This document shows positions 22,853-57,999 of a stretch of 64,000 nucleotides of DNA, in pieces; position 1 is the stretch's first letter; every line of letters starts with the position of its first letter. The DNA comes from Paenibacillus sp. UNC499MF (GTDB taxonomy: Bacteria; Bacillota; Bacilli; Paenibacillales; NBRC-103111). The notes under the pieces are model-generated. The model was not told the origin of the DNA, made no database searches, and saw only the letters and a list, made by a program, of their open reading frames with translations. The position numbers were made by a program, and so were the translations under genes. The stretch covers positions 124,001-188,000 of the forward strand of contig NZ_FNVF01000010.1 in NCBI RefSeq assembly GCF_900107975.1. The letters run 5' to 3'.

Positions 22853-22900
22853 GAAAAAAAGAGCATGACACACGTGTAAATACGCATGTACTGCTCTTTT
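22853..22900 (-). terminator. Intrinsic terminator between ywlE and rpiB
   Basis: AAAAGAGCA and TGCTCTTTT form a nine-base stem around a 26-base loop that itself has ACATGCGT/ACACGTGT-like complementarity. TTTT follows on the minus strand. It lies 126 bases before the rpiB start and so may end transcripts from ywlE. Confidence 0.65.
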
Positions 22901-23077
22901 GCCCAGGCGACCGGCCGTATACCCCGATGCTCCACTGTGGTTACACCCACTCGTCGCCAGTTACACCGGGTCTTCTTTTATGCCCCTATCTTACCGTATT
23001 CCCGCAAAACTGTAAAGCCGCTAAAAAATGAAGATTTTGTTAGCCCGGCGAGCAGAAGCCCCGGCCATTGTGGCCAT

Positions 23078-37502: not shown

Positions 37503-37521
37503 ATATGAAAATACAAACCGG

Positions 37522-37566
37522 ATGCCGCTTATCACGAAGCAGACGAGCCCCGATAGCGCCGACGCT
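37522..37566 (+). pseudogene. Relic related to the 3' end of the downstream aldolase gene
   Basis: These 45 bases match 40412-40456, inside the aldolase gene at 39605, at 38 of 45 positions without gaps. Read in the same frame they encode MPLITKQTSPDSADA, against MPLIAKQTEPDSAAA in the gene. Similarity stops sharply on both sides, and no ribosome binding site or start gives a real gene here. I read it as the degenerate tail of a former copy; function is unlikely. Confidence 0.55.
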
Positions 37567-37648: not shown

Positions 37649-37720
37649 TCGTGATCCAGCCATGGTATATTCAATAGGTTAGTCACAAAATATCCACAGA
37701 ATTATCACTTGTCAACATTG

Positions 37721-37743
37721 TTATCCACAAGTTGTTAACAAAG
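37721..37743 (+). repeat. Copy 1 of a 23-bp direct repeat containing a DnaA box
   Basis: TTATCCACAA, then GT, then TGTTAACAAAG. Copy 2 at 38042-38064 has CA in place of GT and is otherwise identical (21 of 23). The repeat combines a DnaA box with the palindrome-like GTTAAC. Confidence 0.75.
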
Positions 37744-38041
37744 ATTTACCGAAAAACGTTATCCACTTGTGGGTAACGTTTGATAATTTCTGTTCTTCCT
37801 AACCAGAAGAAAATCGCTCTTTTGGTTTATGTTCGAATTTTCCGAATTTTACGACTAAACTGAATTTTCCTCAGTATTCATGCGGGTTTGCACTTGTTTC
37901 TTCTCTCTTCTTTTATTAGGTATCTCTGACGCTTCCTGCTTATTTATTTTTTTCATAAATGTGAATCATTTGCTTACTATATCTATTTTGGATAGACTAA
38001 GGTACACTACTCAGGTAAAATGAGTAGAGTTATCCACAATT

Positions 38042-38064
38042 TTATCCACAACATGTTAACAAAG
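38042..38064 (+). repeat. Copy 2 of the 23-bp direct repeat containing a DnaA box
   Basis: TTATCCACAA, then CA, then TGTTAACAAAG; see the copy at 37721-37743. It ends about 80 bases before the tadA start and is preceded three bases earlier by another perfect DnaA box. A CTACTCA/TGAGTAG inverted repeat (38007-38027) lies just upstream. Confidence 0.75.
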
Positions 38065-38680: not shown

Positions 38681-38764
38681 CCGGACATCCTCCAAGGTTT
38701 TAACCTGGAGATTCTTCCTCCCTCAAACCATTCTGTGGTATACTAAATAACGGAATTTGTATAT

Positions 38765-38838
38765 GCGCCCGTAGCTCAGCAGGATAGAGCGACAGTTTCC
38801 TAAACTGCAGGCCGGAGGTTCGAATCCTCTCGGGCGCG
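38765..38838 (+). tRNA. tRNA-Arg(CCU)
   Basis: Complete cloverleaf of 74 nt: acceptor arms GCGCCCG/CGGGCGC, a D-arm with GCTC..GAGC, anticodon loop TTCCTAA (anticodon CCT) and a T-arm GGAGG-TTCGAAT-CCTCT. No encoded CCA. It is followed by an intrinsic terminator. It marks the left end of the accessory region. Confidence 0.95.
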
Positions 38839-38854
38839 TTCCATATCGACTCGC

Positions 38855-38885
38855 AAACCCTTGTGCCGCAAGGGTTTTTTCTTTT
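38855..38885 (+). terminator. Intrinsic terminator after tRNA-Arg
   Basis: AAACCCTTG/CAAGGGTTT with a five-base loop (TGCCG), followed by TTTCTTTTT. It is a textbook rho-independent terminator 17 bases after the tRNA. Confidence 0.9.
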
Positions 38886-39604
38886 TGGTTCGCGAACTTA
38901 ATGCAGAAACATACTTGTTTTTGCCTAAATAAACATCCGTCTGCCTTACCGGAGTGAAAATTATATCGGGCATCCACCGGTCTCCGATATTGCGTCTCGT
39001 CATTCCCGTGGCTTCTTTCCTCTAACCGACAAATTATTTTTACAATTTATTACAAATTTTAACCGAGATTAAAAATATATCTCCATTCGCCTTTATCCTC
39101 TCTACCCTCACATGAAGTGGAATTGACCCTTGATTAGCGTTTTTTCTCCCTTCCACCCCTTACTCCAATCAGGGTTTCCGAACTCATGCTTCATCCCGCT
39201 TATCTTCCTTCCCCGCCAAAAAGACAAACCGTGGTGGATTAAATACTAAAACTTAATTTAAAAGTTTTTGAGCAATTTAACCAAATTTTAATTTACTTTT
39301 TTTGTCTAAAAAAGTAAAATCATAGTTGAAGAGATCGTTATGGATGTTAAGGGATCTATTTACATTTAATCCATTTCACGTCTACTGGCCTATTTCCTCT
39401 TTTCGCCCCTATCTTCCGAATTATTCGTACTGTGACGAAAGAACGAATTTTAAGATCCTCGCTTCTAGAAATGTCCACAATAATTAGCGGCAATCGGTAC
39501 TGGTTTTGCGCTTTTAGCCTGTTCGGTATCACTTCTATTTTCGTGCGGTTCTGAAAATGGGGTTCTTTCTTATTTTGCATTTACATCGGAAAGGAGATCT
39601 ATGT
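38886..39604. other. Long AT-rich intergenic region before the five-gene biosynthetic operon
   Basis: About 700 bases, clearly AT-richer than the flanking genes, with no supported gene. A 74-codon frame on the minus strand (39356-39580) lacks a ribosome binding site and is rejected. The only strong structure is the 11-base inverted repeat at 39292-39318. The promoter of the operon must lie here, but no convincing -35/-10 pair was found. Low GC next to a biosynthetic operon is compatible with insertion into a foreign or regulatory spacer. Confidence 0.6.
39292..39318. promoter_or_regulatory. Perfect 11-bp inverted repeat, candidate operator
   Basis: TTTACTTTTTT and AAAAAAGTAAA flank TGTCT. 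It lies about 290 bases upstream of the first gene of the 39.6-45.2 kb operon in an otherwise featureless spacer. It could be an operator or, less likely, a weak bidirectional terminator. Confidence 0.45.
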
Positions 39605-40486
39605 ATGAGTAAATTGCTGCGTCTTTCAAAGATTTTTCATCCGAAATCCGGCCGCTCTTTCATGCTTCCGGTAGATCACGGCACCACCTACGGACCACTT
39701 AACGGTATCTCCTCCATGCCTGACTTGCTGCGTATGGCCAACCGTTTCCGTCTGCAGGCAATCATTGCTCATAAGGGGGCCATCCGCCGTGCCCTTGAAA
39801 GCAGCGAATCGCCATGGGGAACCGAATTCATCCTTCATCTCTCGGCTTCTACTCAAATGTCACCGGATATGTCCCGCAAGCAAATCGTATCGACCGTCCG
39901 TCACGGCCTGCAAATCGGAGCTATCGGCCTTTCCGTACATATTAATCTGGGAGTTCCCCAGGAACATGAAATGCTGCGCGATCTCGGCCTTATCTGTGAT
40001 GAGGCTTATGCCTGGGGTCTTCCCGTCCTGGCTATGATGAACGTCCCCGATGAAGATCTTTCGGACCGGGCGGCGACCAACAAAATAGCTCATGCGGTCC
40101 GGATCGCCGGGGAACTTGGCGCGGACCTCGTTAAAGTTCAAACGCCGGCTACTCCGCAGAGAGCGGCTGAAGCCGTAGCTGCTTTTACCATCCCCGTTCT
40201 GATGGCCGGAGGAAGCTCCGTAGGCGACAAGCTCGCTTTTTTCCGGGGAGTCAGGGATATGCTCGATGCCGGCGGTAAAGGCCTTTGCATAGGCCGGAAT
40301 CTTTTCGAAGATTCCCGCCCCGATGATATGTGCCGCGCACTCGGAGATCTCGTTCATAGGGACTGCAGCGCGGAGGAAGCCTACGAGACTTATTTGGCCG
40401 CCGCCTCCCGTATGCCGCTTATCGCGAAACAGACGGAACCCGACAGCGCCGCCGCTCAATTTGACACTTGGGAGGAATACGCATGA
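39605..40486 (+). CDS. DhnA/GriI-type class I aldolase (2-amino-3,7-dideoxyheptulosonate or aminodihydroxy-oxoheptanoate phosphate synthase-like)
   Basis: A TIM-barrel class I aldolase of 293 residues. The N-terminal SGRSFMLPVDHGTTYGP resembles the PMDHG motif (Asp24-His25) of archaeal ADH synthase. HKGAIRRAL and MAGGSSVGDK follow, and the Schiff-base lysine is Lys177 in GADLVKVQTPAT. The family condenses a C3 or C4 aldehyde with a sugar phosphate. Its GriI member joins aspartate semialdehyde and dihydroxyacetone phosphate on the way to 3-amino-4-hydroxybenzoate. The GriH-like partner two genes downstream makes that role the best guess. AAGGAG lies eight bases before the ATG. It overlaps the next gene by ATGA. 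Confidence 0.85.
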   Translation: MSKLLRLSKIFHPKSGRSFMLPVDHGTTYGPLNGISSMPDLLRMANRFRLQAIIAHKGAIRRALESSESPWGTEFILHLSASTQMSPDMSRKQIVSTVRHGLQIGAIGLSVHINLGVPQEHEMLRDLGLICDEAYAWGLPVLAMMNVPDEDLSDRAATNKIAHAVRIAGELGADLVKVQTPATPQRAAEAVAAFTIPVLMAGGSSVGDKLAFFRGVRDMLDAGGKGLCIGRNLFEDSRPDDMCRALGDLVHRDCSAEEAYETYLAAASRMPLIAKQTEPDSAAAQFDTWEEYA

Positions 40487-41244
40487 TCATTGACAGCCAC
40501 GCCCACATATCGAGGCAGGATTACAGCAGCCCTGAACGTCTGCTGGACGATATGAAGACGGCGGGTATAGACAAGGCCGTCCTGGTGCCGGGCGGCATGC
40601 TGGACGTTAGACGAATGACCCGGTACGTCACCGGAGAGGAAAAGCCGATCCTGACGGCTCCTCCCAACGACACCGTACTGGAGATTATCCGTGAATACCC
40701 GGATAAATTTTACGGAATCTGCTGTATTAATCCGAACGACGGGGCTCCGGCCGCTCTGGCTTCTTTGGAGAAGGCATGCCGGGACGGATTCAAGGGACTC
40801 AAAATGTCGCCTCTTGTCCATGAGGTTACTCTTATGGGAGACGTTGTTAAAGAACTTGCCGCCCTGTGCGGAGATTATGGGATCCCCTTCTATACGCACC
40901 TAGTTATCCAAGCAAGAGCGAATACGGCCGCACTGGGTTCGCTTGCCGAAGCTTTTCCGGGTACTAATTTCGTTATCGGCCATATGGGTTTCGGCCCGCT
41001 AGACATAGACGCCATAGAATTAGCCGCCCGTAGGGAAAATGTTTACCTGGAAACGTCTACCGGCAATCCGCTGTCCATTCAGACGGCGGTTAAACTGGCG
41101 GGTCCCGACAAGCTTATGTTCGGTTCCGAGTTTCCCTTGTCGGACCCATTCGTGGAGAAGGTCAAAATCGACCGTCTCCCTATCTCCGATGCGGATAAAG
41201 AAACGATTTTGCATCATACGATTTCACGCTTGCTTGGACTATAA
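40483..41244 (+). CDS. Amidohydrolase-family (TIM-barrel) protein, candidate heterocycle-forming cyclase or decarboxylase
   Basis: A compact amidohydrolase_2 fold of 253 residues. Metal ligands seen are His6 and His8 (DSHAHIS), His139 (FYTHLV) and His167 (VIGHMGFG). The usual aspartate of GSDxP is replaced by Glu216 in MFGSEFPLSDP, with Asp221 nearby. This family includes ring decarboxylases such as ACMSD, and the amidohydrolase-like cyclase reported for nataxazole-type benzoxazole formation. The ATG overlaps the aldolase stop (ATGA) with GGGAGGA upstream. In this operon it may close an oxazole ring or decarboxylate the aromatic product; sequence alone does not decide. Confidence 0.75.
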   Translation: MIIDSHAHISRQDYSSPERLLDDMKTAGIDKAVLVPGGMLDVRRMTRYVTGEEKPILTAPPNDTVLEIIREYPDKFYGICCINPNDGAPAALASLEKACRDGFKGLKMSPLVHEVTLMGDVVKELAALCGDYGIPFYTHLVIQARANTAALGSLAEAFPGTNFVIGHMGFGPLDIDAIELAARRENVYLETSTGNPLSIQTAVKLAGPDKLMFGSEFPLSDPFVEKVKIDRLPISDADKETILHHTISRLLGL

Positions 41245-41271
41245 TATTCGCCGTATAAGGAGGGAAAGCAC

Positions 41272-42621
41272 GTGGCCGTAACAGCAAGAAGCCAAATGGA
41301 ATTGATGTCCGGGCAAAAAGCGGGGGACCGGTTCGAGCCGCACGTCCGGTGGCTTAACAGCCTGACCGAACGCGGAACGTCGGTAGAGAACCTGAGTCAG
41401 GCGGAAGTGGATGCTTATCACCGGAGAGCCTTACGCAGCTTGCTTCAATTTGTGTATGAAACCAATGAATTTTACAAACAGCGTATGGATATGGCCGGCC
41501 TGACTCCGGAAGAGGCTTCCACTCCCGCTTTATTTGCCAAACTGCCTTTCCTGACTAAGGAGGATTTGCGCAGCGATCCCCGCTGCATCATTTGCTCGCC
41601 TGATCTGGCTCATATTCATACTTCGACCGGTACAACCGGAGGCAAGCCGATCTTTATCGGCCATACTTTGAATGATCTTTACCGGCTGGATACGGCTCCC
41701 CGCTACCCATCCCTTATGCAGAATACGCGAAATACCGTAGTCGGCAACGCCTTACCCTATGAAATGAGTTCTTCCGGACTCTCATTCCACCGGGTGTTTC
41801 AATATATGCAGAACTGCTGTGTACTGCCTGTCGGTAAAGGGGGAGCATACTCCCAACCCGATAAGGCTCTCGAGTGCATGCTGGCCTGGGATATGCAAAC
41901 CTTGATTATTGCTCCTTCTTACGCCGTTACCCTGGCTGAACATGCGCAAAAATTAGGAATCGATCTTCATCGCGATTTCAATTTGCAGCATTTGTTTTTG
42001 ACTGGTGAAGGCGCTTCAACCGCTCTCCGGGAACGGGTCGAACGGATCTGGAACTCACCGGTGACAACCTGGTACGGTTCGCTTGAAGTAGGTCTGATCG
42101 GGATCGAATGCCTGGAGCACCAAGGCTACCATTTGGCCGAAGGCCATACTTATACCGAAATCATTCATCCTGTTACGGGAGAGCCCCAAGCTCCCGGCAT
42201 CGTCGGCGAAGTCGTTCTCACTACCCTGATGCGCGACGGCATGCCCGTAATCCGGTACAAAACGGGAGACCTCGGCTACATTGAGGAAGGTCCCTGCCCT
42301 TGCGGCTGCCGTCTGCGCCGTTTGCAGCTGAGAGGACGTATGGGTGATCAGCTCGCCCTCAACAGCGGGGATTTTTCTCCCCTGTATCTTGAACAGCAGC
42401 TCCTGCAAATCAGCGGCACAGGCAATTGGTATCAATTTATCGTTGAAAACGGGGAGCTTTCCGTACTCGTCGAAACTTGCGACTCCAGTGTAGACCGGGC
42501 GGGGCTTTTAAAGGAGATAAAACTGCGTATCGAAGCGAGTATCCGGCAATCCTGCGACGTTCAAATCGTCGATTACGTAGAACGCGACGCGGGGAAAGCC
42601 CGCCGGGTTATTCGACTATAA
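41272..42621 (+). CDS. PaaK-like adenylate-forming ligase, copy 1
   Basis: Related to phenylacetate-CoA ligases and to stand-alone aryl-acid adenylating enzymes. The 449 residues show the nucleotide-binding loop TSTGTTGGKP (117-126), WYGSLEVGLIG, and VIRYKTGDLG. They also show a Cys pair in CPCGC and the C-terminal catalytic lysine context DAGKARRVIRL (Lys442). The GTG start at 41272 follows AAGGAGG. Within the operon it most likely activates a hydroxylated (amino)benzoate as the acyl-AMP. Whether it then uses CoA or a direct acceptor is unknown. Confidence 0.85.
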   Translation: MAVTARSQMELMSGQKAGDRFEPHVRWLNSLTERGTSVENLSQAEVDAYHRRALRSLLQFVYETNEFYKQRMDMAGLTPEEASTPALFAKLPFLTKEDLRSDPRCIICSPDLAHIHTSTGTTGGKPIFIGHTLNDLYRLDTAPRYPSLMQNTRNTVVGNALPYEMSSSGLSFHRVFQYMQNCCVLPVGKGGAYSQPDKALECMLAWDMQTLIIAPSYAVTLAEHAQKLGIDLHRDFNLQHLFLTGEGASTALRERVERIWNSPVTTWYGSLEVGLIGIECLEHQGYHLAEGHTYTEIIHPVTGEPQAPGIVGEVVLTTLMRDGMPVIRYKTGDLGYIEEGPCPCGCRLRRLQLRGRMGDQLALNSGDFSPLYLEQQLLQISGTGNWYQFIVENGELSVLVETCDSSVDRAGLLKEIKLRIEASIRQSCDVQIVDYVERDAGKARRVIRL

Positions 42622-42639
42622 CAAGAGGAGATCTGCGAA

Positions 42640-43926
42640 ATGAGCAAAGTGCTGAAAGAAACGCCTGAAATCGATCCGAAAGCATCCGATAATTCCAATC
42701 GTCCGACCGAAAAACCTGCTGAAGCGAAAACAAGCGGCGCAGCCGTTCCCGTTTCCAGCCTCAATCAGGCCAAAACTAAACCTATCGCGTCCGTACGCAG
42801 CAAGTACGCGTGGTTCGATATCAGTACTTTGACCGCACCGGAGCAATGGGGCGCCATCGTACAAGCTATGCCCCACCAGAAATTTACCGGTGTCGTGGCC
42901 AATGAGCAGCAGGTGAAGCAGCTTCCTCCGAATTTGGATAAAATCACCTATGTCCAAGGCACTCCTTCTCCCGATAAGCTGACGGCTTTAAACGAAGCCT
43001 ACGATATTCTGGTTTTGGAACCGTCGGTGATCAGCAGCAGCTGGTTCAGACGCAACCGTGAAACCATCACCTGTAAAATAGGAACCAGTGTAAATGTAAC
43101 GGACCCTGAGACTCTACAGCTCGCTGTAGCGATGACGCACGAAGTGTCCCTGCTAATCGTTGAATTTCGCGACGACACCAAAATTCCACTTGAAATCGTT
43201 CTGGCGGACGCCCAGAATTTCGGCACCGAGGTAGTCATGAAAGTACGTGACGATGTCGAGGCGAAAGTCGTGTTCGGCGTACTCGAATGCGGGGCAGACG
43301 GAGTCCTGATCGCATCTGGCGATCTAGGCCAAGTATATGCGGTAGGCGAAGTCATCACTTCAACGGGACAAAAAGGCGGCCAGCCGCTCCAGAAGCTGAC
43401 CATTACACGGACGGAGCACGTCGGCATGGGCGACCGCGCCTGCATCGACCTGACAAGCTATCTCGGCCTCGATGAAGGAGTGCTGCTTGGCTCTTTTTCC
43501 TGCGGTGGCATTCTTGCCTGCAGCGAGACCCATCCGCTTCCCTACATGCCGACAAGACCTTTCCGCATCAATGCGGGCAGTCTTCACACCTACGTGCTGG
43601 CACCGGATAACCGGACCTGGTACTTGTCCGACCTGCGATCGGGTATGGAAGTCCTCGTCGTCAGCACATCAGGCAAAGCGAGACGCGTATCGGTCGGCCG
43701 CGTGAAAATCGAGCGGCGTCCCCTGCTCTATATCGAAGCCCAGGCGGAAGACGGGACAATTCTCAACGTCATTATGCAGGAGGACTGGCACGTGCGCGTA
43801 TTCGGCACGGGGGGACAGCCGATCAACATTACAACATTGAAGCCGGGCGATCAGGTGCTGGGCTATACGATGGACCCCGGCAGGCATGTCGGTGTGAAGG
43901 TCGATGAGCTGATTATCGAGCAGTAA
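42640..43926 (+). CDS. GriH-type/3-dehydroquinate synthase II homologue (3-amino-4-hydroxybenzoate synthase-like)
   Basis: The 428-residue protein has a disordered, Lys/Pro/Ser-rich N-terminal tail (about residues 1-55) and then the full DHQ synthase II fold. Diagnostic blocks are LECGADGVLIAS, HVGMGDRACIDL, GVLLGSFSCGGILAC, RPFRINAGSLHTYVLAP and VGRVKIERRPLLYIEA. Archaeal members make dehydroquinate by NAD-dependent oxidative deamination. Streptomyces GriH uses the GriI product to make 3-amino-4-hydroxybenzoate. Because it is next to a GriI-like aldolase and to acid-activating enzymes, the second activity is favoured. GAGGAG precedes the ATG. Confidence 0.85.
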   Translation: MSKVLKETPEIDPKASDNSNRPTEKPAEAKTSGAAVPVSSLNQAKTKPIASVRSKYAWFDISTLTAPEQWGAIVQAMPHQKFTGVVANEQQVKQLPPNLDKITYVQGTPSPDKLTALNEAYDILVLEPSVISSSWFRRNRETITCKIGTSVNVTDPETLQLAVAMTHEVSLLIVEFRDDTKIPLEIVLADAQNFGTEVVMKVRDDVEAKVVFGVLECGADGVLIASGDLGQVYAVGEVITSTGQKGGQPLQKLTITRTEHVGMGDRACIDLTSYLGLDEGVLLGSFSCGGILACSETHPLPYMPTRPFRINAGSLHTYVLAPDNRTWYLSDLRSGMEVLVVSTSGKARRVSVGRVKIERRPLLYIEAQAEDGTILNVIMQEDWHVRVFGTGGQPINITTLKPGDQVLGYTMDPGRHVGVKVDELIIEQ

Positions 43927-43935
43927 CGCATTCTT

Positions 43936-43957
43936 CAGGTCTAAATTTTTCGACCTG
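43936..43957 (+). other. Small inverted repeat before the second ligase gene
   Basis: CAGGTC and GACCTG flank a ten-base AT-rich loop in the 65-base gap between the GriH-like gene and the second ligase gene. There is no T-run, so read-through is expected; it may be an RNA processing site. Confidence 0.35.
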
Positions 43958-43991
43958 CACGATCCCATACCCATTTAAGGGGGAACATCCT

Positions 43992-45221
43992 GTGTCCGAG
44001 AAATTTACCGCCCTTATGGAGCGATTGGAACAATCACCTTTCTATAGACAGCATCTTTCCCCGGACGATCGGGAAATCAGAGATATTTCCCGGATCGGGG
44101 AATTGCCGCTGACGACCAAAGACCAGCTTCGCGAAGCCGGTCCCTGGAATCTGCTGGCGGTGCCGCCGGAGGAAGTCTGCCAATACTTCGAAACGTTCGG
44201 GACGACCGGACTGCCGGCCTCGGCCTGGTACACAGTCCGGGACCTGGAAGCGGGCGGCCGTCAGATCAACGACTCCGGCTTGCGCCTTAAACCCGGGGAC
44301 CGGCTGCTTAACCGGTTCCCGTACGCACTGTCCCTTCCGGCTCACCTGGTTCAGCAGGCCGCGCGGCAGGCGGGCGCATGCGTGCTTCCGGCCAGCAGCC
44401 GGAATACGATGACGCCTTATCCGCGCATCATCGAGCTGCTGCGCAAGCTGAACGTGACGGTGATGACGGGTCTTCCCCGCGAGATGGAAATACTGGCGGA
44501 AACCGCGCGGCTGCATGGATTCAGCTGCCGGGAAGACTTCCCGTATCTTCGGGCCATCGGCGTCGCGGGGGAACTTCTTGCCGAGCCGCGCCGCAAGAAT
44601 ATTGAAGAGTTATGGGGCGTGCCAGTTTACAACCTCTACGGCTCTACAGAAACGGCCAACATAGCGGCGATGTGCGAACACGGCGTCCTGCACGTGGCCG
44701 AAAAAGATTTCTTCGTCGAAGTGCTTCAGGAAGACCTGTCGGCTGCGGTTGAGCCCGGCGGAGGCAAAGGTCTTGCCGTGATCACAACGTTGACCCACGA
44801 GGGCTCTCCCCTTCTCCGTTACTTAAACGGGGACGTGATTTCCCTCGAAGAAGTCAACTGTCCGTGTGGAAGAAACGGACACAGACTGACCCATTACGGA
44901 CGGCAGCATGACAGGCTGGAGGTATCCGGACGGATATTGGAACCGGCGGACATTCATAACGCCGTGTATTCGCTGCCGGATCTGCCGGATGCCTGGAAAG
45001 TATCGCCCGTGCAGGACGGTCTCCATTTTACGTTCGAATGGCAGGGGAAAGACGCCGGGGTGCTCCCGCATTTTGCGTCAATTCTCAGCGAACAGCTTCA
45101 GCTTCCGGTTGCTGTGGAACCGAGCGAACCGGGAACCCTGTTCGACCGCCGCCTGCTGCTTGAGCGCCAGGTCAGCACCAAGCCGCTTTATATCGTAAAG
45201 CCGGCAGAAGTTGTGCTTTAA
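43992..45221 (+). CDS. PaaK-like adenylate-forming ligase, copy 2 (divergent)
   Basis: Shorter paralogue (409 residues) of the ligase at 41272. It keeps NLYGSTETANIA and the CPCG segment. The nucleotide-binding loop is degenerate (ETFGTTGLPAS instead of SSGTTGKP) and the YxTGD motif reads RYLNGDVI. The C-terminal lysine motif of copy 1 is not obvious. It may adenylate a different acid or have become an acyl-transfer/condensing partner. The GTG start at 43992 follows GGGGGA. Last gene of the operon, followed by a hairpin. Confidence 0.8.
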   Translation: MSEKFTALMERLEQSPFYRQHLSPDDREIRDISRIGELPLTTKDQLREAGPWNLLAVPPEEVCQYFETFGTTGLPASAWYTVRDLEAGGRQINDSGLRLKPGDRLLNRFPYALSLPAHLVQQAARQAGACVLPASSRNTMTPYPRIIELLRKLNVTVMTGLPREMEILAETARLHGFSCREDFPYLRAIGVAGELLAEPRRKNIEELWGVPVYNLYGSTETANIAAMCEHGVLHVAEKDFFVEVLQEDLSAAVEPGGGKGLAVITTLTHEGSPLLRYLNGDVISLEEVNCPCGRNGHRLTHYGRQHDRLEVSGRILEPADIHNAVYSLPDLPDAWKVSPVQDGLHFTFEWQGKDAGVLPHFASILSEQLQLPVAVEPSEPGTLFDRRLLLERQVSTKPLYIVKPAEVVL

Positions 45222-45260
45222 ACCGCCACACGTTCGGCGTTTATATCAATAGGATCAAGC

Positions 45261-45290
45261 AAACCCCCGTGCCTTCTTGGCCGGGGGTTT
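45261..45290. terminator. Hairpin between the convergent operon and GGDEF/EAL gene
   Basis: AAACCCCCG and CGGGGGTTT form a nine-base GC-rich stem with a 12-base loop. The downstream T-run on the plus strand is short (GTTGGTCTTTG). It likely ends both the plus-strand biosynthetic operon and the minus-strand gene at 45313. Confidence 0.65.
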
Positions 45291-45312
45291 GTTGGTCTTT
45301 GTAGAAAAGCCG

Positions 45313-51881: not shown

Positions 51882-52751
51882 ATGATCGAGATCCGTAACT
51901 TATCTAAAAAATATAAAAACCAGCCGGCTCTCACCGGGGTTAATCTTGAGATCGGGCAGGAAATGTTCGGCCTGCTCGGGCCGAACGGAGCCGGCAAAAC
52001 GACGCTCATGCGTATTTTGTCCACGCTTCTTGAGCCCACGGAGGGTACTGTGCGCGTGGGAGGATTGCACCTGCTGTCGGATGCCGAGCATATCCGCAAA
52101 ATCACGGGCTATCTCCCCCAGTATTTTCACCTGTACCCGCAGCTCACAGCCTACGAATTTCTGGACTATGTGGCCGTCATGAAAGGCATCAAAAGCGCCC
52201 GCGAGCGCAAATCCCAGATCGGCGAAATTCTGGGTCAGGTCAATCTGACCGAGAAGGCGGGCGCCAGGATCAAAACCTTTTCCGGCGGCATGAAACAGCG
52301 GCTGGGGATTGCGCAGGCTCTCCTCGGGGACCCCAAGGTGCTCATCGTGGATGAGCCCACGGCGGGGCTCGATCCCGAGGAGAGAGTCCGCCTCCGCAAT
52401 CTCCTGAACCGCTCCAGCCTGACCCGGACGGTGCTGCTGTCCACGCATATCGTCGCGGACATCGAGAGCAGCTGCAGCCGGGTAGCGGTGCTGCACCGGG
52501 GCCGCGTCGCCTTCGCGGGCAGTCTCTCCGGCCTGCAGGAGTGCGCCGAGGGCATGGTCTGGGAAGCGGAGCTGAGCGAACGGGAATTTGCGGCCTATGA
52601 GCCGCATCAGGTCGTAACCGCCCGCCGGACCGGCCACGGCATGCTCTGCCGCATCGTGTCCGCAGCCCCGCCAGCGGGCAATCCCGCTCCCGTGAAGCCT
52701 ACGCTGGAGGACGGCTACCTCGCACTGATCGGAGGTGGCCGGCGTGAATAG
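51882..52751 (+). CDS. ABC transporter ATP-binding protein
   Basis: Nucleotide-binding subunit of a type II (ABC-2) exporter, 289 residues. Walker A GPNGAGKT lies at 33-40, the ABC signature is FSGGMKQRLGIAQALL, and Walker B is VLIVDEPTAGLDPEE. The C-terminal 70 residues form the regulatory extension common in BcrA/NatA-like exporters. AAAGGA lies before the ATG. It overlaps the following permease gene by eight bases, so the two subunits are coupled. Confidence 0.93.
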   Translation: MIEIRNLSKKYKNQPALTGVNLEIGQEMFGLLGPNGAGKTTLMRILSTLLEPTEGTVRVGGLHLLSDAEHIRKITGYLPQYFHLYPQLTAYEFLDYVAVMKGIKSARERKSQIGEILGQVNLTEKAGARIKTFSGGMKQRLGIAQALLGDPKVLIVDEPTAGLDPEERVRLRNLLNRSSLTRTVLLSTHIVADIESSCSRVAVLHRGRVAFAGSLSGLQECAEGMVWEAELSEREFAAYEPHQVVTARRTGHGMLCRIVSAAPPAGNPAPVKPTLEDGYLALIGGGRRE

Positions 52752-54954
52752 ATGGCTGCGCGCTTTCTCGCTGGAACTGCGGCTGCTGCGCAGCAATCCC
52801 GTTCTTCTGGTCCTCCCGCTCCTGTTCGGAGCCTGGATGGTCTACTCTCTCGCGGGCATCGCTCCGCCCGTATCTCAGGATCTTTATTTGTATGTCTATG
52901 ACTTTCATAAGGTCAAGCACACGCTGACTTTGGGGGCGGCCATGCTGCTCGGTATTCTGCTTATCCGCAGGGATACCGCCAAAACCGCCTACGAGTGGAC
53001 GGCCGGCCTTCCCGTCTCTCCCGCGGTTCTTTTCAGCGTAAAGTATGCGGCCGGGCTTCTCTATCTTTCCTTGTTTACCGCGGCCATGGCGGTCGTTTAC
53101 GTATACTTTGCCCTTCGCTACGGAATCAGCAGACCTGTCATGGTTCAGGAGCTTACGTTTTTTGCAATCCAGTACGAGTGGTCTTATATGGTGACTCTTG
53201 CCCTGGCCATGCTTCTGGCCATCAGCATCCGCAACCGGATCGTATATCTGATCGGCTTCTGCGCCTGGGTTTTCGGCACGTTTTTTATCGATCAATTTAT
53301 TATCGAACGCCTCGGAATTCTGGAACTGCGGGTACTGAAGCCGTTTCATCTCAGCGGAATGACGCTGGATTCCTTCTATGGCAATGAGGCATGGGGACCC
53401 TGGATAAAAGAACGGGAAACATGGCTGGCCAGATGGTTTGTGCTCAGCTTCACCCTGGTTCTGCTTACCGTTTGCGTTACCATACTGAAATGGGTCCGTC
53501 CGAGCGGAACACGCGGGAGATGGGCGGCGGCCCTGATCCTTTTTACCGTCCTGTCCGCGAGCTCTTACTACACCTATATAAAATTCTGGACTCCGCATTT
53601 TGCGGCTTATCGGGATCAGCTCGGCAATGCTCCGACAGAATCGGTCTATAATCAGCGCACGATTACCCAGTTTGCCGTTAATTCTTACAAAATGGAGCTG
53701 GCTCCTGTTTCTCCGGATGGGCTCCAAGCCACTGTAGAAGTGTCGCTCCATCCTGCCGATTTACCGCAAGGCGACGTTTCCTTTACCCTGCACGATTATT
53801 TTCACGTGGAACAATTGTTGCTTGATAATCAGCCTGTGCCGTTTAAGCGCGGCGGCAATTTGGTTTCCGTCGAGAGCCGTTATTTTGATTCTTCCAAAAG
53901 CAGCCAAATTCTTACCTTCTCTTATAAAAGTAAAGGCTTGAACTGGACATACGGGCCGCGGCAGGGGGAGCAGATTATCTCATTCGTAAAGGACCCTTAT
54001 TTGTACCTGCCCCACTCGGCCGCCTGGTATCCTTTACCCAATAACGGACCGCTCTACCTTACCGATGAACACAATAAGGAACTGTTCTACGGCGGACCCC
54101 AGCCTTTGGCGCAGCCGGCCGATTTCGATGTCACTTTTAAAGGGTTTTCTACCCCCATATACGGTTCTATTACGGAGAAACAAGGTTCCGCGAGCATCCA
54201 GCATTTTGAGCAGAAGGGTATAAAGCATCTGACCTTCCTAGCAGGAAACCTTATTCAGTTCAGTGACGCCAAGGGCAGCCTCAAACTGCAGACAACTCCG
54301 GGCAACCGGTTGGAAGCCGACCTATTCTGGAAAGATATCCTGAGGATGAAAGCCTATTATGAAGCTGTTCTGAAAACAAATCTAAGCGCCGTGCGTAACA
54401 TCGTGTATCTGTCTTACGGGAATCTAATTTCTCCGGACAGCCATCAATCGGCGGTTGCGGGAAGCAGCTATTATATCAACGAATCGAAAAATCATAACCT
54501 GGACGATTATCAGCGCATTCGGACCACTTATGCTCTCCTTTTCGGGGATGATGTCTACCAGGTCAGCTACGCTGAAGTTTCCAGAGATGCGAACGGCAGC
54601 ATGGACGAGTCCGTCAAACCTTCCATTTTTATGGAAATCCGCTCTGCGTTCTTATACCTGTACTATAGGGACGGGCTCCAGCTTACGGAGGAGCAAATCA
54701 GAAGCGTTCAATTCTCGGACCAGTTTCTTCCGAAGGATAGGATGCCCGGAGGCCGGGGCCTCGGCCAGCAGATCAAGAACTCGATTCTCCTTCAAGTCCG
54801 GGAAGCACTGGATACGGGAAAAGCGGAAGAAGTGAAGAGAGTGCTTGCCTATTTCTACAAAAAGGGCCTCAGCGCTCCCGACGCTCCTTTCCGATACCCG
54901 GTAGTCACGCTCGATGATTGGAACAGGGAGTGGGCAAAGGTGTTCGGCTCATGA
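52744..54954 (+). CDS. Large ABC-2 type permease with extracytoplasmic domain
   Basis: The 736-residue membrane protein is encoded directly after its ATPase. Residues about 1-270 contain six to seven helices including the ABC-2 core. Residues about 275-736 are mostly hydrophilic and rich in beta-strand-like segments, presumably outside the cell. The GTG at 52744 is chosen because GGAGG lies eight bases upstream; another GTG at 52735 is too close to it. The large external domain is unusual for simple exporters and may bind substrate or lipid. I do not recognise a peptidase motif such as HEXXH in it. Confidence 0.8.
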   Translation: MNRWLRAFSLELRLLRSNPVLLVLPLLFGAWMVYSLAGIAPPVSQDLYLYVYDFHKVKHTLTLGAAMLLGILLIRRDTAKTAYEWTAGLPVSPAVLFSVKYAAGLLYLSLFTAAMAVVYVYFALRYGISRPVMVQELTFFAIQYEWSYMVTLALAMLLAISIRNRIVYLIGFCAWVFGTFFIDQFIIERLGILELRVLKPFHLSGMTLDSFYGNEAWGPWIKERETWLARWFVLSFTLVLLTVCVTILKWVRPSGTRGRWAAALILFTVLSASSYYTYIKFWTPHFAAYRDQLGNAPTESVYNQRTITQFAVNSYKMELAPVSPDGLQATVEVSLHPADLPQGDVSFTLHDYFHVEQLLLDNQPVPFKRGGNLVSVESRYFDSSKSSQILTFSYKSKGLNWTYGPRQGEQIISFVKDPYLYLPHSAAWYPLPNNGPLYLTDEHNKELFYGGPQPLAQPADFDVTFKGFSTPIYGSITEKQGSASIQHFEQKGIKHLTFLAGNLIQFSDAKGSLKLQTTPGNRLEADLFWKDILRMKAYYEAVLKTNLSAVRNIVYLSYGNLISPDSHQSAVAGSSYYINESKNHNLDDYQRIRTTYALLFGDDVYQVSYAEVSRDANGSMDESVKPSIFMEIRSAFLYLYYRDGLQLTEEQIRSVQFSDQFLPKDRMPGGRGLGQQIKNSILLQVREALDTGKAEEVKRVLAYFYKKGLSAPDAPFRYPVVTLDDWNREWAKVFGS

Positions 54955-55667
54955 GCCTTTGGCTGCAGGACCTCAAAGGGTTTAAAAGTATATGGGGCTT
55001 GTTCCCTCTCCTTTACGTGCTTATGCTGGGATTCGCTATGTGGAACTCGGATCCGGAGCAGCCGGGCAATGCGTTATTTTATGGAGAGCTTGCCTTCTAT
55101 CCGCTGGTTGTCATGCTTTGTGCCGCGCTTTTTCATCGCGAGCTTGACGGGCCCATGGAAATTTACGCGGCCTTTCCCTTGTCCCTGGCTTGGATGCCGA
55201 TGCGTAAAGGGCTGATCCTGCTTGCCGTCTGCGCAGGCTATCAAGCCTCATGGTTTGCAGCCTATCAGGCAAAATTCGGGGCCGTAACGACGCTGATGTT
55301 TCCCTATGGCTCTGACGGTCAGCCTCACATGCGTACGTTAAACGGCTTTATGCCGCTTCTGATGCAGATGCTACCAGCTCTGCTGTTTGTTTCCGCACTT
55401 ACCGTTACGGTCATGCTGGCGGTCAAGAAGCTGTATGCCGGGCTGTTTGCGGGGCTTGCCTTCTGGATGCTCGATATCCTTTCACATGGAAGCTGGTTTC
55501 CTTACTTCACCATTTATACGGTCCATCTTCAGGAGCAGGCTAAAGAGATCCCGGATCTTTTTCTTCCGAACCGGCTTGCGCTGCTGTGTGCTGCGCTGAT
55601 TTTATCCGTGTTCATGATTTATACGGCTCGGAAACGCAGCCGCTGGATTGTCTCCGAAGAAGAATAA
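54951..55667 (+). CDS. ABC-2-like membrane subunit
   Basis: The 238-residue protein has six hydrophobic segments and no obvious soluble domain. Its ATG overlaps the stop of the large permease (ATGA), so it is probably a second membrane component of the same transporter. The LFPLLYVLMLGFAMWNSDPE start and the helical hairpins resemble ABC-2 permeases of lantibiotic-immunity type, but similarity is weak. It could also be an accessory protein. Confidence 0.75.
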   Translation: MSLWLQDLKGFKSIWGLFPLLYVLMLGFAMWNSDPEQPGNALFYGELAFYPLVVMLCAALFHRELDGPMEIYAAFPLSLAWMPMRKGLILLAVCAGYQASWFAAYQAKFGAVTTLMFPYGSDGQPHMRTLNGFMPLLMQMLPALLFVSALTVTVMLAVKKLYAGLFAGLAFWMLDILSHGSWFPYFTIYTVHLQEQAKEIPDLFLPNRLALLCAALILSVFMIYTARKRSRWIVSEEE

Positions 55668-55713
55668 TACAGCCGGCCGCCGCATAAGCGGGACCGGAGA
55701 AAGGAGGAGAGCC

Positions 55714-56331
55714 ATGCTTACGGATGAAGAGCTGGTCCAAGCTATGGCCCGGGGCGATCAGGCCGCATTCGAGGCTTTTGTGCACCGCTATCATGCCCCG
55801 CTTCAGCATTATCTCGAACGGACCCTGCACGATCCCCGCAAAGCGGAGGATATGGTCCAGGAAGTATTCGTGCGTCTGCTCAAACAACTGCAGAAACAAA
55901 TCATCCCCGATCACATCCGACCCTGGATGTACCGGGTAGCCTTAAATCTATGCCGGGATTATTGGAAGAGCCTTGCTTACAAAAACGAGCAGCAATTAAC
56001 GGCCGAACCGCCCGAAGCGCAGGATTTTCAGCCTTCCGTTGTAGAAATCTACGAGCGGCAGGAAGCACGCAAAGAAATTATCGGAGCCCTTGGCTCCCTT
56101 CCCGAAGTTCAGAAGGAAATCGTCATACTCCGTTTCTTTCATGATCTGAAGCTTCAAGAGATTACAGAGGTTCTGCAAATCCCGCTGAGTACGACGAAAA
56201 CCCACCTTTACAGCGGCCTTCGTAAGCTCAAAGCTCTACTCGGCTCCAAAGCCGGAAGCTTAACGGACACCGCCGGCGGGCAAAAAGAAAATCACGGCAA
56301 ATCGACCAAGGAGGGAACCCCTTATGTATGA
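55714..56331 (+). CDS. ECF-family RNA polymerase sigma factor (first copy)
   Basis: The 205-residue protein has sigma region 2 (residues about 10-80) with HDPRKAEDMVQEVFVRLLK, and region 4 (about 120-180) with LGSLPEVQKEIVILRFFHDL and LQEITEVLQIPLSTTKTHLY. The start at the ATG at 55714 is supported by AAAGGAGGAG. The stop overlaps the next membrane-protein gene by eight bases. The position inside an ABC transporter operon suggests it controls that operon. Confidence 0.92.
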   Translation: MLTDEELVQAMARGDQAAFEAFVHRYHAPLQHYLERTLHDPRKAEDMVQEVFVRLLKQLQKQIIPDHIRPWMYRVALNLCRDYWKSLAYKNEQQLTAEPPEAQDFQPSVVEIYERQEARKEIIGALGSLPEVQKEIVILRFFHDLKLQEITEVLQIPLSTTKTHLYSGLRKLKALLGSKAGSLTDTAGGQKENHGKSTKEGTPYV

Positions 56332-57160
56332 ACCTGACGATAAAGAGCTTGACCGGTTGGAGAAAGATGTAGCCTCCCTGCTGAACGGATACCTGGTTAA
56401 GACGCCTGATCGTATAGACACTGCCCGCCTGCTCGGCAGGCTTCAAAGCCACTTTGATGCCATTCGCGAGAGCAGTACGGGTGCAGCCGCGCCTGAATAT
56501 TCTGCCGACCTGCGGCCGTCTTTGTGGAAGCTTTGCCGCCATCAGCTTTTTATGTACAACAAGTGGTTCTGGCTGCTTAGTCTGCTGCTCTTTGCCATGC
56601 TGCTGCTGCTTAACTCGCCCTACACCATAGCAGGCTCCCTGCCGGGCCGCTCGTCTTATTCGCTGGCTTTCCCGCTTCTGCTCGTTTGCGGCTTTCTGTA
56701 CCAGTACCGAAGCTGGAACGAAGGGATGCGCATGATCGAGAGCGTTACGCCCTATCCCCCCGCGCTTCTCATGTTCAGCCGTCTAATCGTTCTGCTCATA
56801 ACGAATGCGGTACTGGGCCTCATTGGCTCTCTCTATACGTTTGCAACGATGAGCTACTCAAGATCATGGATAACGGTTCCTTTTCTTTTCGATTGGATTG
56901 CACCGCTTCTGCTCGTAACGGGCTTAACCGCCTATTTTATGATGAAGCGAGGCATGTTATCGGCCATAATGGCCGCTCTTATAGGCTGGGGGGTAGAACT
57001 GTTCATGGAAGAGTGGCTACGCCGGGAACTAACCGGACCGGTCTGGAACTGGGCGCTGATTCTTCAGGCGGTGCTTATCGCGGCGGGTGTCCTTCTTCTT
57101 CTGTCGGCCTACCGGAAAAGCCTGCGTCTCTCAAATGTGCAGGGATGGCGGTCCGCATGA
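56324..57160 (+). CDS. Membrane protein with cytosolic N-terminal domain, possible anti-sigma or transporter subunit
   Basis: The 278 residues start with about 85 hydrophilic residues (YEPDDKELDRLEKDVASLLN) followed by six hydrophobic segments. Directly following an ECF sigma gene with an eight-base overlap is the usual position of its anti-sigma factor. Six helices and the following ATPase gene instead suggest an ABC-2 membrane subunit. The N-terminal part has no HxxxCxxC zinc motif. Both roles remain open. Confidence 0.65.
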   Translation: MYEPDDKELDRLEKDVASLLNGYLVKTPDRIDTARLLGRLQSHFDAIRESSTGAAAPEYSADLRPSLWKLCRHQLFMYNKWFWLLSLLLFAMLLLLNSPYTIAGSLPGRSSYSLAFPLLLVCGFLYQYRSWNEGMRMIESVTPYPPALLMFSRLIVLLITNAVLGLIGSLYTFATMSYSRSWITVPFLFDWIAPLLLVTGLTAYFMMKRGMLSAIMAALIGWGVELFMEEWLRRELTGPVWNWALILQAVLIAAGVLLLLSAYRKSLRLSNVQGWRSA

Positions 57161-57999
57161 TCCGCGTTAATCAGCTCGTCCGTCTCTACGAAGGCCATAT
57201 CCGGCTTCATATAGACCGGCTGACACTTGATCCGGGACTGATCCTGCTCGTCGGAAAGAACGGAGCCGGCAAGTCCACGCTGCTCCGTCTGCTGGCTACC
57301 GCTGATTTTCCCGACGGAGGGGAGATCAGTTATACGGAGGGGACCGTCAAAGAGCAGCTTCCCCAGATCCGCAGCCGGATCGGTTATGTGCCGACGGATG
57401 TGGAACTTCATGAAGATATGACGCCCATCCGGCTGATGAATTACATGTGCCTCCTTAAAGGAGCCGACCCTGCTCAAGGAGAACAACTGCTGCGTGAGCT
57501 GCATCTGGAAGACGTCAAACGGAAGAGGATCGGATCGCTTTCTCAAGGAATGAAGCAGCGCCTGGCAATCGGCCAGGCGCTGCTCGGATCTCCGCGCTAT
57601 CTGCTGCTGGATGAGCCTCTTAACTATCTCGATTCCATCGAGCGCAAAACGGTCATCCGCATCTTGTACCGGCATGCCCGCAGCAGTGTCGTGCTAATCG
57701 CGGCTCATGAGTTGAACGAATGGCAGGAAGCCGATCAGCTTCTGTGGCTGAACGCCGGCAAGCCGGAATTTTACGGAACGCCGGAAACGTGGAGGCAAGT
57801 ACCTCTCGGAGTTTGGCAGGGAACTCTTCCTCATGCAGACATCTGCCCCTTCGACGAGGCTTGCGTAATGATCCGAAAGCTCGCTGGGGAACATATCGAG
57901 TGGCGGGTATTCAGCCCCGAATGTCCCGCGGCGGGGTTTGTCCAAGTCCCGCTGACAACCGAGGACGCGTATTTTATCCGCTCCCGGCGCTTGCTTTGA
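57157..57999 (+). CDS. ABC transporter ATP-binding protein (second copy)
   Basis: The 280-residue ATPase has Walker A VGKNGAGKST (32-41), a signature loop LSQGMKQRLAIGQALL, and Walker B YLLLDEPLNYLD. The ATG at 57157 overlaps the stop of the preceding membrane protein (ATGA); an ATG four codons earlier is possible. An apparent longer frame from 56686 lies in the wrong reading frame of the membrane protein gene and is not real. It probably energises the membrane protein encoded just upstream. A terminator follows. Confidence 0.9.
   Translation: MIRVNQLVRLYEGHIRLHIDRLTLDPGLILLVGKNGAGKSTLLRLLATADFPDGGEISYTEGTVKEQLPQIRSRIGYVPTDVELHEDMTPIRLMNYMCLLKGADPAQGEQLLRELHLEDVKRKRIGSLSQGMKQRLAIGQALLGSPRYLLLDEPLNYLDSIERKTVIRILYRHARSSVVLIAAHELNEWQEADQLLWLNAGKPEFYGTPETWRQVPLGVWQGTLPHADICPFDEACVMIRKLAGEHIEWRVFSPECPAAGFVQVPLTTEDAYFIRSRRLL

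Follow-up and report, generated by a model that had tools for sequence, protein, structure and literature searches.

A predicted closoxazole-type operon in Paenibacillus and the mixed ancestry of its genes

What do an aldolase, a homologue of the DHQ synthase II family (DHQS-II), an amidohydrolase-fold protein and two PaaK-like ligases make when they are encoded together? The question is raised by a stretch of the Paenibacillus sp. UNC499MF genome (contig NZ_FNVF01000010.1, positions 124,001 to 188,000; hereafter the window, 64,000 nucleotides in full), in which five such genes lie side by side at 39605-45221. An initial annotation, made from the sequence alone, had proposed a route from 3-amino-4-hydroxybenzoate (3,4-AHBA) to a benzoxazole and, with all five gene types of the clx and pfx clusters present, this stands as the best reading. 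Comparison with these clusters indicates that the operon probably encodes a closoxazole-type biosynthetic pathway of the clx side of the family, with closoxazole A or a close analogue as its predicted product.

Enzyme pairs that make 3,4-AHBA are familiar from Streptomyces (GriI/GriH, BagB/BagC and FevI/FevH), and their combination of an aldolase with a DHQS-II homologue is shared by the operon. NatL2/NatAM of nataxazole biosynthesis and AjiA1 likewise offer a PaaK-like aryl-acid coupling ligase, and NatAM is in addition an amidohydrolase cyclase, but the substrate of NatL2/NatAM is 3-hydroxyanthranilate and not 3,4-AHBA. The earlier hint at 3,4-AHBA-based benzoxazoles of anaerobic bacteria has an exact precedent in closoxazole, the product of the clxA-E and pfxA-E type of cluster. 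The clxA-E genes are those of Clostridium cavendishii DSM 21758 (Horch et al. 2022, known here through the available portions of PMC12118335 and PMC12519233). As described in the available text of PMC12118335, ClxE and ClxB make 3,4-AHBA, ClxA couples two molecules of it, ClxD closes the benzoxazole and ClxC adds a third unit; pfxA-E of Pyxidicoccus fallax comprises the same five functions, its ligases and cyclase having been reconstituted in vitro, and ClxD homologues are reported across several phyla, Bacillota included. This kind of cassette is already published and widespread and the operon is a further case; what is new is the split within the family.

Operon layout and proposed pathway

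Five intact open reading frames (ORFs) occupy one strand of the block, as the initial annotation had placed them:

39605-40486, + strand: G1, DhnA/ADH-synthase-like class I aldolase in a Tyr-to-Asn form (Asp24, Asn146, Lys177, Cys228), predicted ClxE/PfxE role
40483-41244, + strand: G2, amidohydrolase-fold protein (His6, His8, His139, His167, Glu216), predicted cyclase in the ClxD/PfxB role
41272-42621, + strand: G3, PaaK-like AMP ligase of the ClxC/PfxA kind, which would add the third building block
42640-43926, + strand: G4, DHQS-II homologue of BagC/FevH-like lineage by models and tree, probable 3,4-AHBA synthase in the ClxB/PfxD/GriH role
43992-45221, + strand: G5, ClxA/PfxC-type ligase by alignment with ClxA, whose contacts are mostly kept; predicted to dimerise 3,4-AHBA

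The starts of G1 and G2 were set at ATGs preceded by clear ribosome-binding sites, and G4 carries an N-terminal extension of about 54 residues. ATGA overlaps or short gaps had been described between the genes; the overlap is seen at the G1/G2 junction, and the remaining intergenic gaps, taken from the coordinates, are 27, 18 and 65 nt. Pfam and NCBIfam models bear out the proposed families: G2 matches Amidohydro_2 (6.7e-34), G4 matches DHQS (PF01959; 1.9e-99) and G5 matches AMP-binding (6.2e-17), and G3 lies slightly under the Pfam cut-offs (24.9 against 25 and 20.1 against 29.9 bits) and matches the PaaK model at 1.8e-56, yet below that model's own cut-off. G1 matches the DeoC/LacD aldolase family (3e-31), but the label GriI/DhnA-like fits it less plainly, as it has lost a Tyr and misses the equivalog model. 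All five ORFs are unbroken in the five genomes of the genus. The ratio of non-synonymous to synonymous substitution (dN/dS) against the genus locus L002 is 0.05-0.12 for G1-G5; against L004 G1 alone gave a value (0.12), G2-G5 being saturated.

The gene content matches clxA-E type for type: an aldolase, a probable AHBA synthase, two PaaK-like ligases and a small amidohydrolase. From the published homologues we infer each reaction, the order of the steps and the product as follows. In G1, a Schiff base at Lys177 would serve to join L-aspartate-4-semialdehyde to a C3 phosphate, and the G1 product would be cyclised and aromatised by G4 to 3,4-AHBA. G5 would then adenylate 3,4-AHBA and couple a second molecule via its 4-OH, giving an unstable ester, or via its amine. 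G2, acting as a zinc cyclase, would close the ring with loss of water to yield a 2-arylbenzoxazole carboxylic acid, to whose carboxylate G3 would add the third aryl unit. The masses published for the dimer, the benzoxazole and closoxazole A are m/z 289.08, 271.07 and 406.10. The operon in this way points to benzoxazole biosynthesis in a Paenibacillus group by a small set of five genes that could be transferred as one unit.

Active-site evidence and competing readings

In fold and sequence, G1 is nearest to the M. jannaschii ADH synthase (MJ0400), whose proton-donor Tyr we take to be Tyr153. G1 retains the Schiff-base Lys177 and the base Asp24, both conserved in 34/34 aligned aldolase rows, and has Asn146 in place of the Tyr, so that of the Lys, Asp and Tyr of an ADH synthase or GriI-type aldolase the last is replaced. 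Asn occupies this position in seven of the 34 rows (the five of the genus, Mesobacillus foraminis L006 and L036 of genome G139), which form one clade (support 95/91), and Tyr in the other 27. In MJ0400 the Asp base and the Schiff-base Lys are Asp33 and Lys184 (PMC4162585). According to the available text of PMC2728841, the Tyr is placed as proton donor in Schiff-base formation in both the M. jannaschii enzyme and the T. tenax fructose-bisphosphate aldolase, and in LsrF, which lacks it, Asp251 may stand in. At the Asp251 position, matched by eye, Cys is present in all seven Asn-type aldolases (Cys228 in G1), and the other rows have Ala (18), Ser (7) or Cys (2). Synthesis of the AHBA precursor is probably retained in the Asn146 form, the proton then coming from water or from a different residue, Cys228 being a candidate. 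G1 fails the ADH-synthase equivalog TIGR01949 (212.1 of 299.45 bits), as do seven of the nine other scored rows, and like its missing Tyr its score of 152.7 bits sets it far from BagB/FevI, against 275.6 and 298.3 for two Streptomyces rows. A search of the 95.8% complete genome for a second, Tyr-bearing aldolase gave none at E up to 0.1 and two chance-level matches at 0.18 and 0.21.

An aldolase of this form, together with its DHQS-II partner, might make an aromatic precursor other than 3,4-AHBA and so lead to a new benzoxazole. The exclusive Tyr-to-Asn change (7/7 rows of the clade, against Tyr in 27/27 others), the finding of G1 as sole aldolase homologue, and the extra ligases and ABC exporter of the two loci outside the genus that share the Asn would fit such a product. 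It is nonetheless unlikely, given the BagC/FevH-like lineage of G4, the retention of the Schiff-base Lys and the Asp base in G1 and of ClxA Asn226 in G5, and the position of ClxA, from a pathway that uses 3,4-AHBA, on the same side of the ligase tree. As a separate observation, a 49-bp segment at 37518-37566, directly following the alanine racemase gene, duplicates with 84% identity the 3′-terminal part of the aldolase gene (40408-40456); in L002-L005, searched on the + strand at up to 14 mismatches, the aldolase gene itself alone was matched (L002 and L003).

Against the NCBIfam subfamily model PRK02290.1-3 the DHQS-II homologue G4 scores 385.7, above the cut-off of 375. BagC/FevH comes second at 319.8, well under the 750 that this model requires, and G4 does not pass the equivalogs called DHQ synthase II, which places it closer to the AHBA synthases than to those equivalogs. 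With G1 related to MJ0400 and G4 a member of the DHQS-II family, the pair could be read as an archaeal-type alternative entry to the shikimate pathway lying beside unrelated ligases; the initial annotation had named a firm grouping with archaeal-type shikimate enzymes as the outcome that would overturn its proposal. This was checked with family models and a G4 tree of non-archaeal sequences, the archaeal side thus resting on the models. Such an entry pathway would substitute for a missing aroB, but a classical aroB is present in the genome (373.6 bits over a cut-off of 305), which makes a shikimate role for G1 and G4 unnecessary. Moreover, the pair is joined to the ligases and cyclase in five members of the genus and occurs in only 5/104 genomes of the family. 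With aroB present and the DHQ synthase II equivalogs failed by G4, the bypass was rejected as exceedingly improbable.

Among solved structures, the best relative of the ligase G5 is 9s3l (246.8 bits, 3.4e-72), which ranks above AjiA1 and NatL2. We take 9s3l to be ClxA because its numbering of Ser118, Pro120, Lys140, Met198, Tyr219, Thr222, Asn226, Asp281 and His301 fits the ClxA residues given in the available text of PMC12519233. G5 shares 37% identity with ClxA in an alignment of 325 residues and keeps Ser118, Pro120, Tyr219, Thr222, Asn226 and Asp281; Lys140 is changed to Ser and Met198 to Leu, and His301 falls in a gap. The counterpart of the C-terminal Lys393 is found in a K-P tail aligned with the AjiA1 Lys, that part of 9s3l being unaligned. 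The contacts to AMP and 3,4-AHBA that mark a ClxA-type ligase (Tyr219, Thr222, Asn226, Asp281 and Lys393) therefore have counterparts in G5, and Asn226 is the residue that contacts the para-OH of 3,4-AHBA in the portions of PMC12519233 available.

It is possible, if rather doubtful, that the scaffold is closoxazole-like with another third unit or coupling: G3 might attach a different acid or amine, such as the 4-aminobenzoate of closoxazole B, or G5 might yield closoxazole C, the isomer linked through the amine. According to the available text of PMC12118335, PfxA differs from PfxC in regioselectivity, and other aryl acids are also taken by these ligases; G3 is just 34-50% identical to the outside homologues found, and the Ser at Lys140 of ClxA concerns the acceptor site of G5. 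The operon, however, contains no gene for a second aryl acid, and the contact to the para-OH of 3,4-AHBA is kept.

The amidohydrolase G2 has His6, His8, His139 and His167 in agreement with an amidohydrolase metal site; they resemble the four His of NatAM, whose metal-site residues are given as His75, His77, His253, His290 and Asp345 in the available text of PMC7204872. The same four His are present in the cyclases of five genus genomes and 14 outside loci. The last metal position of a condensing amidohydrolase of the NatAM kind, Asp345, is Glu in 19/19 cassette cyclases on both sides of the family (Glu216 in G2) and Asp in 9/9 comparison amidohydrolases, three of the nine being the same gene in three species. 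The comparison set consisted of 30 Amidohydro_2 loci, of which five were the genus cassette cyclases, nine were alignable and 16 did not pass the search and were uncounted. Glu216 may still be compatible with a NatAM-like working of G2; the Glu is a shared feature of the cassette cyclases seen and could be relevant to how hydrolysis is run in reverse. The predicted model of G2 is of moderate confidence (mean predicted local distance difference test score 71.9), and its nearest Foldseek matches, among those listed, are LigY, an uncharacterised amidohydrolase and ACMSD-like decarboxylases; no row of the best 50 matches listed is described as NatAM.

Were G2 not to close a ring, the product would be a bagremycin-like linear ester or amide of AHBA, and G5 does match the BagE/FevW model (204.4 bits, cut-off 800). 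The conservation of a cyclase with the same four His throughout the five genus genomes and 14 outside loci makes this very unlikely.

Several findings weigh against assignment to the closoxazole pathway. The comparison with ClxB-E and PfxA-E was by family, role and operon content rather than by their sequences. Asn226 is found in 7/17 cassette ligase rows and is no general mark of the cassette. The acceptor-site Lys140, modelled to bind the acceptor's carboxylate in the available text of PMC12519233, is Ser in this genus and Lys in 1/17 cassette rows; since its role rests on docking and on a mutant that stays active, Lys140 was not treated as defining. G1 lacks the Tyr and is the sole aldolase homologue found in the genome, so the precursor might not be 3,4-AHBA. 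The interior of the operon (39605-45221) contains no transport gene and no regulator gene, in agreement with the initial annotation, and the pathway is left with no exporter of its own. Finally, the closest loci outside the genus, as judged from cyclase, aldolase and G3, are L006 (6198-19020) and L036 (1266-13342). These are larger relatives of the operon that encode, besides three PaaK-like ligases and one more AMP ligase, TPR proteins and an ABC-2 exporter pair, from which it follows that a related operon can make something else.

Two sides of the cassette family and mixed ancestry

The cyclase and ligase trees split the cassettes into two sides, and ClxA falls on that of the Paenibacillus operon. 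Seven clx-side cyclases separate from twelve others (100/100), with fixed differences such as Asp221 in 7/7 against His in 11/12. In the ligase tree (17 rows plus the ClxA fragment, unrooted), seven clx-side rows and ClxA separate from nine others (100/99), the neighbour of ClxA itself being L006 in a weak long-branch join (76/61). Because ClxA joins the operon side, clx probably belongs there too. Gene order in the genus, in clx letters, is E-D-C-B-A, which is found in 0/12 complete cassettes outside it; the order C-D-A-B-E, uninterrupted, is found in 6/12 (L037, L039-L041, L065 and L066) and is also that of pfx, as read from the locus tags and homologies in the available text of PMC12118335. 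By this order pfx looks like a member of the other side. E-D-C-B-A reverses the clx lettering, and the clx map may itself run in this order. The view that gene order and the Asn aldolase depart from clx was withdrawn on account of this lettering and of the place of ClxA in the ligase tree; clx may have both features in common with the operon.

We tentatively propose, while holding it doubtful as a whole, that the closoxazole family has two branches. The branch of clx and this operon would be marked by fixed residues of its own in the cyclase and by an aldolase in which Asn stands in place of the Schiff-base Tyr, with Cys228 perhaps taking over, and the pfx branch would keep the Tyr; the genus would have re-paired its aldolase with an AHBA synthase of another lineage. 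A published conflict, as it appears in the available text of PMC12118335, is that ClxD accepts an amide and PfxB only an ester. The cyclase split may bear on this difference, and under the two-branch proposal would explain it. The operon offers a third system, with ClxD and PfxB, in which to ask if ring closure starts from an amide or an ester.

The genes of the operon have mixed ancestry. The aldolase, cyclase and G3 trees join the genus with L006 and L036 (99/97 for G3, with one of the two copies there), and G5 joins it weakly with L036 (90/72). G4 is grouped with two Streptomyces plasmid homologues and the G953 row (100/99), away from L006 and L036. A constraint holding the seven G4 rows together was rejected by the approximately unbiased test (p 9.1e-08) without the two longest rows, L054 and L055; a long-branch artefact was considered and discarded, the split remaining without these rows. 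When the two Streptomyces rows and G953 were also left out, G4 was split in 96% of bootstrap trees, with no strongly supported branch forcing it. The split is likely to be real, and the donor lineage is less sure. Scores from the BagC_FevH model run in the same direction: 319.8 bits for G4, 285.2 for G953, 212 and 218 for L006/L036 and 242-250 for four other Bacillota rows; for the two Streptomyces homologues BagC/FevH is the best model after the subfamily model (449.7 and 364.6 bits). The simplest reading is that the AHBA synthase was replaced in the ancestor of the genus, although the replacement may have been in L006/L036. Within the clx side, only this genus has an AHBA synthase that appears BagC/FevH-like. 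The operon would combine an aldolase naturally devoid of the Tyr on which its pathway is expected to depend with a natural exchange of the AHBA synthase.

Distribution and genomic setting

The host genome is 5.84 Mb. Among named relatives, Paenibacillus sp. HGH0039 (cyclase 95% identical) and P. chitinolyticus NBRC 15660 (94%) were the nearest found; the latter has the operon, with proteins 91-94% identical. With G4 as probe, matches were obtained in 5/5 genomes of the genus and 5/104 of the family, hence in 0/99 family genomes outside the genus (71/104 of the family sample being at least 90% complete and at most 5% contaminated). The same five account for the matches in the order (5/296); the class and phylum samples gave 9/398 and 19/398, own genome counted in each, and the order of G139 gave 31/299, 27 of these matches being short, at about 165-195 residues. 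Wider flanks were available for 21 Bacillota loci outside the genus (L006, L036-L051 and L064-L067, several cut by contig ends), and 12 of them contain all five gene types (L006, L036-L042, L044, L051, L065 and L066), with partial cassettes in L043 and L047; further G4 matches, known with 1.5 kb flanks alone, are left out of this count. In L041 (3643-4492) the ClxA-type ligase is split into two reading frames, by a broken gene or an assembly error. A search of the available literature found no paper on a closoxazole-like locus in Paenibacillus, though the original closoxazole paper may name one.

Viral contigs were searched and gave no relative. Among plasmids, 13 records match at 31-43% identity, and the four that were opened, with the five operon proteins as queries, gave only G1- and G4-like genes. 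The plasmid loci L054 (Sinorhizobium medicae) and L055 (Klebsiella michiganensis) carry DHQS-II and aldolase pairs near adenylation-domain or adenylate-forming genes, and these pairs apparently belong to other AHBA-type pathways. The samples searched did not place a donor of the operon, and composition gave no signal of recent horizontal arrival (55.1% G+C against 52.9% for the window).

A gene-by-gene comparison of L002 and L004 places the operon between tadA/tRNA-Arg on one side and a GGDEF/EAL gene on the other; by nucleotide alignment L003 and L005 have these flanks too. In seven other genera of the family, the tadA loci compared (L122-L128, one per genus and 6 to 16.5 kb long) contain none of G1-G5. 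The tRNA-Arg to tRNA-Pro spacing is 16 nt in L124 and 111 nt in L122, where the pair lies 9 kb from tadA, compared with 12.8 kb, operon included, in the window; the other five tadA loci do not show the pair. This spacing and the operon-free outgroup loci make it probable that a tRNA site of the genus ancestor received the block, either by insertion or by rearrangement. Elements bordering the operon are as follows:

38764-38839, + strand: tRNA-Arg (CCT), called by ARAGORN, upstream neighbour of the operon in the genus
38855-38877, + strand: terminator-like hairpin between tRNA-Arg and the operon, from a pattern scan
39292-39318, + strand: palindrome TTTACTTTTTT-N5-AAAAAAGTAAA, probable operator, with 11-bp perfect arms and a 5-nt spacer
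45260-45291, + strand: GC-rich inverted repeat AAACCCCCG...CGGGGGTTT, read from the sequence, probable terminator at the operon end

The palindrome lies 286 nt ahead of the start codon and overlaps a sigma-A-like promoter (TTTACT, 17 nt, TAAAAT; 39292-39320), a match of just 9/12, of which there are six in the region against 4.7 in shuffles. It is conserved as a block across five aligned genus loci whose flanks diverge; genome-wide it has a single exact copy, with two more places at three mismatches, and a regulator acting in trans would be expected to bind it. The operon leader was not supported as a structured RNA (z-score 0.70) and has no Rfam match at the gathering threshold. Terminator-hairpin sites show no excess in the region (10 against a shuffle mean of 7.7, standard deviation 3.5); near the operon end the scan gave a weaker hairpin at 45271-45288, overlapping the inverted repeat.

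Elsewhere in the window, the AT-rich gap before tadA (37700-38064), part of which aligns to L004 and L005, holds the window's only three exact DnaA boxes (TTATCCACA; 0.25 expected); the looser TTWTNCACA occurs four times in the window, no more than by chance. A ZMP/ZTP riboswitch lies at 22894-22974 on the - strand, and 51882-57975 encodes two ABC ATPase-like stretches, membrane-like proteins of 739 and 249 residues with no Pfam match, and a sigma-70 family factor.

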